Assembly: GCF_016744625.1 (NCBI RefSeq)
Contig: NZ_JADGDZ010000006.1
Span: forward strand, 1 to 64,000
Reading direction: 5' to 3'
Source of the DNA: Winogradskyella sp.
GTDB lineage: Bacteria; Bacteroidota; Bacteroidia; Flavobacteriales; Flavobacteriaceae
DNA length: 64,000 nt
Numbering within the stretch: the first letter of the stretch is position 1; each line of letters begins with the position of its first letter. A model generated the notes under the pieces. That model searched no databases. It had not been told where the DNA came from and saw nothing but the letters and a program-made list of their open reading frames with translations. A program made the translations under genes and the position numbers. Below, one piece after another: positions 45,190 to 47,177 of the stretch.

Positions 45190-46389
45190 ATGATTTTAGA
45201 AATGAAAGTGCCTTCACCAGGCGAATCAATTACTGAAGTAGAAATTGCAGAATGGTTAGTGCAAGATGGAGATTACGTAGAAAAAGATCAGGCCATTGCT
45301 GAGGTAGATAGTGATAAAGCAACTTTAGAATTACCAGCAGAAGCAAGTGGAATTATTACACTAAAAGCTGAAGAAGGTGATGCTGTTGAGGTTGGAGCTA
45401 TTGTATGTTTAATTGATACAAGTGCTGTAAAACCAGAAGGAGGTGAAGCTCCAGCTAAGACTGAGAAAAAAGAAGAAGCACCAAAACCAGCTGTTACAGA
45501 AACTAAAACTTATGCTACAGGAACAGCAAGTCCTGCTGCTAAAAAGATTTTAGCTGAAAAAGGAATGGATGCGAATTCTGTATCTGGTTCAGGAAAAGGT
45601 GGCAGAATTACTAAAGATGATGCGCTTAATGCAATACCATCAATGGGAACTCCGACAGGTGGAAACAGAGGAACATCCCATAGCAAAATGTCAATGTTGC
45701 GTCGTAAAGTAGCAGAACGTTTAGTAGAAGCTAAAAACACAACAGCAATGTTAACCACATTTAACGAGGTTAATATGACACCAATTTTTGACTTGCGTAA
45801 GCAGCACAAAGAAAATTTTAAAGCTAAACACGGTGTTAGTCTAGGATTTATGAGTTTCTTTTCTTTGGCAGTGGTAAGAGCATTAAAAATGTATCCTGCT
45901 GTTAACTCTATGATAGATGGTAAAGAAATGTTGTCTTACGACTTTGTAGATATTAGTATTGCAGTATCAGGACCCAAAGGATTGATGGTACCAGTAATTA
46001 GAAATGCTGAAAACTTATCATTTAGAGGAGTTGAGTCTGAAGTAAAGCGTTTAGCTATAAGAGCTCGAGATGGTAAAATTACAGTTGATGAAATGACAGG
46101 AGGAACTTTTACTATATCTAATGGAGGTGTTTTTGGAAGTATGTTATCTACACCAATAATAAACCCACCACAAAGTGGAATTTTAGGAATGCATAATATC
46201 ATTCAACGACCAATAGCTGTGGATGGTAAGGTTGAAATACATCCAATGATGTACGTAGCCTTATCTTATGATCATAGAATCATTGATGGAAAAGAATCTG
46301 TAGGATTCTTAGTTGCCGTAAAAGAAGCTTTAGAAAACCCAACAGAATTATTAATGGATAATAATGTAAAGAAAGCTTTAGAATTATAA
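45190..46389 (+). CDS. sucB: Dihydrolipoyl succinyltransferase E2 component
   Basis: A 399-residue core subunit of the 2-oxoglutarate dehydrogenase complex. One lipoyl domain (about 1-77) has the lipoylated lysine K43 in [12 protein letters not shown] Glu/Lys/Pro linker leads to the E3/E1-binding domain (about 115-150, [12 protein letters not shown] and [12 protein letters not shown]). The catalytic domain ends with DHRIIDG, whose His is catalytic. It is in an operon behind sucA and followed at 46409 by a very strong terminator that also serves the minus strand. Confidence 0.97.
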
Positions 46390-46408: not shown

Positions 46409-46444
46409 AAAAAAGCGCAATTTTGTCAAAATTGCGCTTTTTTT
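46409..46444. terminator. Bidirectional terminator after sucB
   Basis: Sixteen-base perfect arms (46409-46424 and 46428-46443) with a 3-base loop and T-runs in both directions. On the minus strand it ends the micropeptide transcript at 46466-46579. Confidence 0.95.
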
Positions 46445-46465: not shown

Positions 46466-46579
46466 CTAACTAAAAAAATTAACAGCTACATTCGCTGAAA
46501 TTACTATTACAGAACTTATAATTAATAAAATTATAAATACTCTATCTTTTTTTGAGGTATTGTCTTTCATTGTTTCCAT
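46466..46579 (-). CDS. Single-helix membrane micropeptide (37 codons)
   Basis: Too short for standard gene calling. On the minus strand ATG at 46579 (a second in-frame ATG at 46570) opens a frame ending in TAG at 46466. The product has a charged lead (METMKDNTSKKDR), one hydrophobic helix (VFIILLIISSVIVISANVAV) and the end NFFS. Supporting its reality: a sharp charge-then-helix pattern, a terminator on the correct strand 22 bases after the stop, and its place at the end of the same-strand series of response regulator and RNA modules. The function is unknown. Confidence 0.6.
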   Translation of the reverse strand: METMKDNTSKKDRVFIILLIISSVIVISANVAVNFFS

Positions 46580-46591
46580 ATAAAATAACTT

Positions 46592-46684
46592 TTTTAAAAA
46601 CTCTGAATTAGTAACTAATCCAGAGTTTTAAGAACTTAATCTGAGGCTTTGATTAATAGCTGATGTAAATTTCTGAATAAAATC
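46592..46684 (-). ncRNA. Candidate small RNA, module C (diverged)
   Basis: The same plan as modules A and B, but diverged: a dyad at 46696-46713, a TAGTATTG box (46696-46689), shared short blocks (TTTACAT, AGCTATTAAT, AGTTCTTA on the minus strand) and a terminator hairpin 46597-46629. The hairpin has a 15-bp stem with one A-C pair on the plus strand that becomes G-U on the minus strand, followed by TTTTT. Predicted length is about 92 nt. It ends 13 bases before the micropeptide ATG. Confidence 0.5.
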
Positions 46685-46695
46685 AACGCAATACT

Positions 46696-46713
46696 ATACG
46701 TAGAACTACGTAT
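46696..46713. promoter_or_regulatory. Dyad ATACGTAG-AA-CTACGTAT, module C
   Basis: A perfect 8-bp dyad around AA, adjoining the TAGTATTG box of module C. The same 18 bases recur at 47160-47177. On the plus strand it is followed by T6, so a terminator reading is also possible. Confidence 0.6.
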
Positions 46714-46731
46714 TTTTTGGCTTTTTTTCAT

Positions 46732-46839
46732 AAAAAAAGCCTTAAATAAATGTTCAAGGCTTAAGTAATCCCCTAAGAACTAATTAATAGCTCGTTATTA
46801 ACCCTTAATTAATAACCTTGCTAAGGTGATAAATAAAAC
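46732..46839 (-). ncRNA. Candidate small RNA, module A
   Basis: Leftward unit: an exact TAGCTTTG box (46851-46844) preceded by a dyad at 46853-46866, about 108 nt of body, then the hairpin AAGCCTTG...TAAGGCTT and seven T. Its one imperfect hairpin pair is A-C on the plus strand and G-U on the minus strand. The body includes a stem GTTATTAA/TTAATAAC over a 7-base loop with AAGGG, and the 51-base block identical to module B. No coding frame is present. Confidence 0.6.
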
Positions 46840-46852
46840 AATGCAAAGCTAT

Positions 46853-46866
46853 AGGTATAAATACCT
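46853..46866. promoter_or_regulatory. Dyad AGGTAT-AA-ATACCT, module A
   Basis: Same 6-2-6 geometry and same alignment position as the module B dyad (ACGTAG-AA-CTACGT). The two changes in one arm are mirrored in the other, so symmetry is preserved. This suggests a dimer-binding site. Confidence 0.6.
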
Positions 46867-47040
46867 GTTTTTAATTATTTTCTGTCATCATAAATCACTA
46901 AAACCGTTTATTTTTTTCGTCACTTTTTTTATTCTTAGCTATACTATATCTTTTGAAAATTGCCACAAATGGGCTTCTGTAACTTAAGAATTACCTCATG
47001 TTTACATGTTTGATTAAAAACAAGAAGAAAGGTAAGTGCA
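46867..47040. other. Spacer between RNA modules A and B
   Basis: AT-rich sequence without a credible gene. A 16-codon minus-strand frame starting at 47042 lacks any supporting feature. No TAnnTTTG box was found on the minus strand. Confidence 0.35.
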
Positions 47041-47041
47041 T

Positions 47042-47148
47042 AAAAAAGCCTTGAACAAATGTCCAAGGCTTAAATAATCCCCTAAGAACTAATTAATAGC
47101 TCGTTATTAACCCTTAATTAATAACAATGTAAAGGTCATAAATAAAAC
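47042..47148 (-). ncRNA. Candidate small RNA, module B
   Basis: Leftward unit directly after the response regulator gene. A dyad (47160-47177) and a TAGTATTG box (47160-47153, one mismatch to TAnnTTTG) precede about 107 nt. The terminator AAGCCTTG-10 bases-CAAGGCTT is followed by six T. The 51-base core is identical to module A. It could also be the 3' untranslated part of the regulator mRNA rather than a separately started RNA. Confidence 0.55.
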
Positions 47149-47159
47149 AATGCAATACT

Positions 47160-47177
47160 ATACGTAGAACTACGTAT
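47160..47177. promoter_or_regulatory. Dyad ATACGTAG-AA-CTACGTAT, module B
   Basis: Identical to the module C dyad and 2 bases from the stop codon of the response regulator gene. Binding by that NarL-type regulator is the simplest guess; it is untested. Confidence 0.6.

Follow-up and report, generated by a model that had tools for sequence, protein, structure and literature searches.

Does the array behind the gene of a NarL-type response regulator (RR) in Winogradskyella sp. encode small RNAs, and if so, what reads it and what might its products do? The stretch of DNA analysed here, which we refer to as the window, comprises 64,000 nucleotides of contig NZ_JADGDZ010000006.1. An inspection made without database searches, the sequence-only reading, had proposed three tandem sRNA-like units behind the RR gene, linked them to this regulator, and pointed to a likeness with the GacA-controlled RNAs RsmX, RsmY and RsmZ.

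Layout of the locus

The three units are real. They follow the RR gene on the minus strand in the order B, A, C, with unit B starting a few bases past the end of the RR gene (Table 1). Over 150 nt, units A and B agree at 87% of positions (89% over 132 nt with E 5e-45 in a DNA search), and they share an identical stretch of 51 nt. Unit C, described as diverged, is nonetheless related, sharing 85% of 55 nt with B in the dyad and promoter part (E 2e-11). In every unit, a palindrome and a -7-like box precede a hairpin that runs into a stretch of Ts, much as had been reported; by sequence, every unit thus has a promoter of the flavobacterial -33/-7 type and an intrinsic terminator. Some details need correction. 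The dyad, given as 6-2-6, is longer, namely TACGTAG-TT-CTACGTA (7-2-7) in B and C, and in A it is an altered palindrome (AGGTA-TTTA-TACCT, a change shared by the relative L034). The TAnnTTTG-like box is present in each unit, although that of unit A is weak (CACCTTAG). The absence of a coding frame holds, as stops interrupt all three frames in all three RNAs. Compared with shuffled sequence, folding gives z = -6.5 for A and z = -4.5 for B.

Table 1. Features of the array in the window.
Feature	Position	Strand	Remarks
NarL-type response regulator (RR) gene, 207 aa	47180..47803	-	Pfam Response_reg E 1.7e-23, GerE E 4e-14
Palindrome, unit B, TACGTAGTTCTACGTA	47161..47176	-	nearly invariant among relatives
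-7 box, unit B, GACCTTTA, consensus TAnnTTTG	47130..47137	-	position by logo of 174 modules
Predicted sRNA B, 85 nt: 5' hairpin, GCTATTAATTAGTTCTTAGGGG core, terminator hairpin 47046-47071	47041..47125	-	
Palindrome, unit A, CAGGTATTTATACCTA, both halves symmetrically altered	46852..46867	-	
Predicted sRNA A, 85 nt, terminator hairpin 46737-46762	46732..46816	-	
Palindrome, unit C, TACGTAGTTCTACGTA	46697..46712	-	
Predicted RNA C, ~69 nt, leader-like, hairpin 46592-46634 + TTTTT	46592..46660	-	
Small single-pass membrane protein ORF, 37 aa, behind unit C	46466..46579	-	

The sequence-only reading is incomplete in that it overlooked the 37-aa membrane-protein ORF behind C: unit C is also leader-like, standing ahead of a small membrane-protein gene. 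Among the neighbouring genes read, no kinase gene adjoins the RR gene. The array is bordered by an aspartyl-protease-like gene upstream and by a convergent odhB-like gene (45190-46389). Between the small ORF and odhB lies a perfect 17-nt inverted repeat with A/T-run flanks (46409-46443), which is probably a bidirectional terminator.

Palindrome, promoter and predicted transcription start

The logo of the modules reads TACGTA-N4-TACGTA, then TTG (indices 16-18), N20 and TAnnTTT(A/G)C (indices 39-47), and the palindromes rank with the best-conserved parts of the DNA. Of 199 modules, 174 have exactly 51 nt from the palindrome start to a GCTATTAAT-like start; from the palindrome end to GCTATTAAT the distance is exactly 35 nt in most modules. 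For Flavobacterium psychrophilum, PMC9723704 places the sigma-A box TAnnTTTG at -12 to -5. Because the published box sits there, +1 is assigned to the G of GCTATTAAT, and with this assignment the logo has the Bacteroidota sigma-A box at the published position (PMC9723704). Independent support for the +1 placement comes from nine relatives that lack the sRNA, in which an ATG stands exactly 35 nt past the palindrome, at the same point as +1; eight of these ATGs begin a scored small membrane-protein ORF, and the ninth (L086) is an unscored ATG. The small ORF of such relatives is thus leaderless behind the same palindrome, and an ORF similar to the 37-aa ORF of the window is found at 107 of 128 loci. 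As far as sequence comparison can tell, the small membrane-protein ORF is an ancestral-looking target of the palindrome and promoter; the comparison suggests that the leaderless gene came first and the RNA arrived later.

The arrangement is that of a NarL-type promoter: the centre of TACGTAG-TT-CTACGTA, a predicted binding site behind a GerE-domain RR, lies 43.5 nt before the predicted +1. A palindrome centred at about -43 and abutting the -33 region would correspond to class II activation geometry. The spacing between palindrome and RNA core is fixed at 35 nt in 87 of the 91 RR-linked copies.

The Winogradskyella genome itself (G000) holds 12 exact TACGTA-N4-TACGTA palindromes, against 0.44 expected from composition. 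Ten further palindromes of this genome are located at C25:14087, C27:4346, C54:1986, C56:644, C56:1420, C63:37712, C83:7402, C91:13977, C98:3115 and C123:2589 (loci L320-L324 and L327-L331). A longer promoter-like repeat, TTG...TAACTTCGCTTAACGTTTGATATAAGTCATT, is common to several of them; the genes that it precedes are an AbiU/AIPR-like one, a TIR gene of the CAP12/Pycsar type and others without family. They may be a set of defence genes under the control of this regulator or of a related one.

RNA fold, terminator and leader-type modules

An alignment of 26 RNAs contains two helices with 17 pairs. Paired cells amount to 96.8%, and 12 of the 17 pairs have changes on both sides. Covariation is 0.481, compared with 0.278 +/- 0.016 for shuffled alignments, and the score drops when the partner is slid. 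The predicted RNA pairing is backed by compensatory changes in both helices. In the model alignment, the stem of hairpin 1 varies and the UUAGGG in its loop is invariant. Hairpin 2 is the terminator, present in 169 of 170 modules with a mean of -16.4 kcal/mol (shuffled: -5.0 kcal/mol). The canonical RNA has one UUAGGGA loop; units of the Winogradskyella A/B type have an additional, inserted 5' hairpin with an AAGGG loop, and their core is found 25 nt further in. The UUAGGGG-loop hairpin of these A/B units is not the minimum-energy fold, UUAGGGG being unpaired or in a weak fold.

T-runs are shorter in modules ahead of a small ORF than in those that stand alone (4.7 vs 5.7, p = 5e-4, with classes assigned automatically and a few stand-alone modules falling among the leaders), which fits leaky termination.

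The 5' end of the RNA extends beyond this family. The pattern TTTRC-N3-GCTATTAATYA occurs in 57 of 149 genomes, with few matches in the reversed control, and at many of the inspected tag sites the palindrome is lacking and the tag heads a different transcript, such as those of genes for outer-membrane-protein-like and 204-aa proteins. Hence the tag is a wider promoter feature of the group. GCTATTAAT was rejected as an sRNA-specific seed because it also starts unrelated promoters; the UUAGGGA hairpin is the part particular to this RNA. A GCTATTAATYA start with a -7 box is common to palindrome-free promoters of unrelated genes at L367, L368, L372, L374, L384, L362 and others. A different RNA-like element was seen at L342, L343, L354, L371, L377, L387 and L394; it starts with GCTATTAAT(C/T)A, contains the conserved hairpin CTTGTTTCTCCC..GGCATTGAAACAAG and has no Rfam match at the gathering threshold.

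Distribution in Flavobacteriaceae

Close relatives of the RR occur in 75 of 149 genomes of the family (one genome per genus); the RR of the window shares 81% identity with its counterpart in an uncultured Winogradskyella (L127). The interval between RR and odhB in these relatives contains as a rule 1 to 4 modules, and nine in one genome (G346). The matches listed for the palindrome with GCTATTAAT at the fixed distance include Winogradskyella, Gelidibacter, Algibacter, Olleya, Bizionia, Lacinutrix, Psychroserpens, Formosa, Hyunsoonleella, Tamlana, Mangrovimonas and others.

A covariance model and an inspection of synteny had been proposed as checks, and both bear the family out. The model (R1) matches 131 of 397 Flavobacteriaceae genomes and 89 of 237 genera at E 0.01, with matches below E 1e-6 in 94 genomes. 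In an order-level sample the matches are confined to the same family, the weakest being a plain terminator. The only match in the large genus g128 reads as a plain terminator and was rejected as a family copy, as were weak matches in the Winogradskyella genome outside the window, which read as plain terminators or chance; the true matches of this genome are only the three units. As to synteny, the RR gene lies directly upstream on the same strand in 70 of the 80 named loci checked, and in most of the other ten the sequence ends close to the match. An exception is L107, where a second-locus promoter stands ahead of a SnoaL-like lipoprotein gene. At L124, L142, L270 and L296 the RR gene is missing between the protease and odhB genes, and the palindrome and RNA module are kept. 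This limits the link to the RR, and another protein may therefore read the palindrome.

The same core behind other regulators

Many genomes have further copies elsewhere, with the same core and a different palindrome. Among 138 matches in 83 loci (a sample partly picked for such copies, so that its counts are not population frequencies), 94 belong to the RR described here, 21 to a PAS-LuxR regulator of 256 aa, 4 to a kinase/RR pair and 1 to another NarL-type RR; the remaining 18 are without regulator class, and several of them carry the TACGTA palindrome. The PAS-LuxR copies have the palindrome TACTCAA-N-TTGAGTA, the kinase/RR copies TTACGG-N4-CCGTAA-like sites, and the copy of the other NarL-type RR AATACCCAGAAATGGGTATT. 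An identical core, GCTATTAATTAGTTCTTAGGGAGAATT, is present in 42 of the 94 RR-linked and 16 of the 21 PAS-LuxR-linked copies. The distance of the core from the palindrome is again 35 nt in 20 of 21 PAS-LuxR-linked copies and in the copy of the other NarL-type RR, and 33-34 nt in the kinase/RR class. In the PAS-LuxR and kinase/RR classes the copy ends at the terminator, and the gene that follows is convergent or unrelated. Two regulator-sRNA units stand side by side at L273 and at L239.

For the regulator of the kinase/RR class, Pfam shows only a sub-threshold DUF5932, and the regulators are thus not all clearly of the GerE type. An orthologue of the PAS-LuxR regulator was not found in the Winogradskyella genome, in a search that had no positive control. 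The proposed link to the NarL-type RR is upheld by synteny over many genera. Other regulators, with other palindromes, are followed by this RNA core as well, so the link is not exclusive. An arrangement of one core under several regulators, with a separate palindrome for each, has the look of a portable sRNA output.

Two observations were made beside this. One genome has near-identical units of TPR-kinase, regulator and sRNA about 7 kb apart (L230, 1996-2062 and 8954-9020). At L379, a palindrome of the PAS-LuxR type with a GCTATTAATCA start lies about 230 nt ahead of a gene for dihydrolipoamide dehydrogenase, an enzyme partner of odhA/odhB, whose genes adjoin the array of the window.

Proposed mechanism and alternatives

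We consider it quite probable that the array consists of three tandem genes from a single structured sRNA family, activated by the RR, and that copies of this family elsewhere serve other sensors. The phosphorylated RR would bind its own palindrome near -43 and activate transcription as a class II activator, yielding RNAs of about 65-85 nt. Through leaky termination, unit C would in addition feed the ORF of the small membrane protein. Copies at other loci would let other sensors make the same RNA, and multiple copies, up to 9, would raise the dose or the strength of the response. As to the action of the RNA, where we are less confident, it would most likely be a trans-acting sRNA, with the hairpin loop UUAGGGA as contact site pairing with C-rich sites in mRNAs. 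Against this explanation, the -7 box and both half-sites of unit A are diverged, and the GGG-loop hairpin is not the preferred fold of A and B. Pairing of the sRNA with the RR mRNA (10 bp, HIRTK codons) was considered and found no support, the complement being present in 1 of 8 genes with readable codons.

A different mode of action would be titration, in which the loop (AGGGA in UUAGGGA) binds an RNA-binding protein and the copies soak this protein up, as Rsm RNAs do with CsrA. The invariant loop on a stem that varies with compensation, the many copies (up to nine in tandem) and the several inputs to one RNA would all suit such a role. However, Pfam searches of the Winogradskyella genome gave no match for CsrA (PF02599) or for RRM proteins, with positive controls matching; there is no candidate protein, and the canonical RNA has one GGGA loop. 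Since CsrA was not found in this genome, titration of the Csr type via CsrA is unlikely, and titration in general appears rather doubtful to us; pairing with mRNAs is held somewhat more likely. It is improbable that the modules act only in cis, as leaders or attenuators ahead of the gene for the small membrane protein, with chance duplicates and no trans-acting RNA. One module per locus indeed stands ahead of the small ORF, with the shorter T-run, but stand-alone modules have their own promoters and terminators, and in the PAS-LuxR and kinase/RR classes the core is retained and a terminator closes the copy ahead of a convergent or unrelated gene.

The conservation of the palindromes would also be expected of DNA decoys or arrays of binding sites with the RNA as a by-product. 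The compensatory base changes in both helices, and a core that persists in Winogradskyella units of the A/B type although it is shifted there by 25 nt from +1, render this reading very improbable. Copies at more than one locus per genome might likewise bring to mind a mobile repeat that spread without regulatory meaning, to which we give almost no credence: the copies mostly lie directly behind regulator genes, they carry regulator-specific palindromes at (nearly) the same spacing, and the Winogradskyella genome has only three true matches.

Returning to RR-activated, trans-acting sRNAs, a broader proposal is tentative, if plausible. The RNA may be a common post-transcriptional output of marine Flavobacteriaceae, in which several unrelated sensor-regulators have their own sRNA copies and palindromes and the RNA acts via the UUAGGGA loop, in a genome whose searches found no CsrA, Hfq or RRM proteins. 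If true, the RNA partner or the mode of action would be new.

Comparison with known systems

The sequence-only reading knew of no such system in Flavobacteriia, and this agrees with our searches. Rfam finds only tRNA elsewhere in the window, with no match for the modules at the gathering threshold and nothing relevant in a permissive scan, and only tRNA at L226 and L230, which represent the other regulator classes; a described system of this kind was not found in the open literature. The sRNA family is apparently undescribed. To our knowledge, regulatory sRNAs of Flavobacteriaceae are hardly known at all. A conserved, regulator-linked sRNA with a defined promoter, palindrome and predicted +1 offers a direct entry to a partner search, through culturable genera such as Winogradskyella, Formosa, Olleya, Algibacter and Psychroserpens. 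One core wired to different regulators by interchangeable palindromes would also be a clear example of a portable regulatory output.

The Qrr sRNAs of Vibrio depend on sigma-54/LuxO and Hfq. The likeness is that they, too, form several near-identical copies with a conserved core, that a response regulator controls them, and that one copy lies near the gene of its regulator. Here, in contrast, the promoter is of the housekeeping type, Hfq (PF17209) gave no match in the Winogradskyella genome, with positive controls matching, and the copies have different regulators.

The Gac/Rsm RNAs of Pseudomonas share with the present system a NarL-type RR, a palindrome upstream of the sRNA promoters, several sRNAs, a G-rich motif in a hairpin loop, and duplicated copies; rsmX is duplicated in P. 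brassicacearum, according to PMC7911923. Here, however, the palindrome is different, the RNA genes lie directly behind the regulator gene, the same core is under several unrelated regulators, and the canonical RNA has one conserved loop instead of several GGA motifs. Of two defining features tested, CsrA was not found in the Winogradskyella genome, and the RR scores 73 bits with the UvrY/SirA/GacA model (cut-off 280), which is not the score of a GacA orthologue. An Rsm-like action is therefore not supported, and Gac/Rsm is a work-alike.

The nearest flavobacterial sRNA with a phenotype is Rfp18, one of the Rfp sRNAs of F. psychrophilum. It is described as a structured trans-acting sRNA with at least 3 stem-loops that pairs by the third (PMC9723704), and the text consulted describes no regulator linkage. 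By this description the RNAs of the window appear to differ from Rfp18, and the likeness to the Rfp sRNAs is that of structured, trans-acting sRNAs in Flavobacteriaceae.
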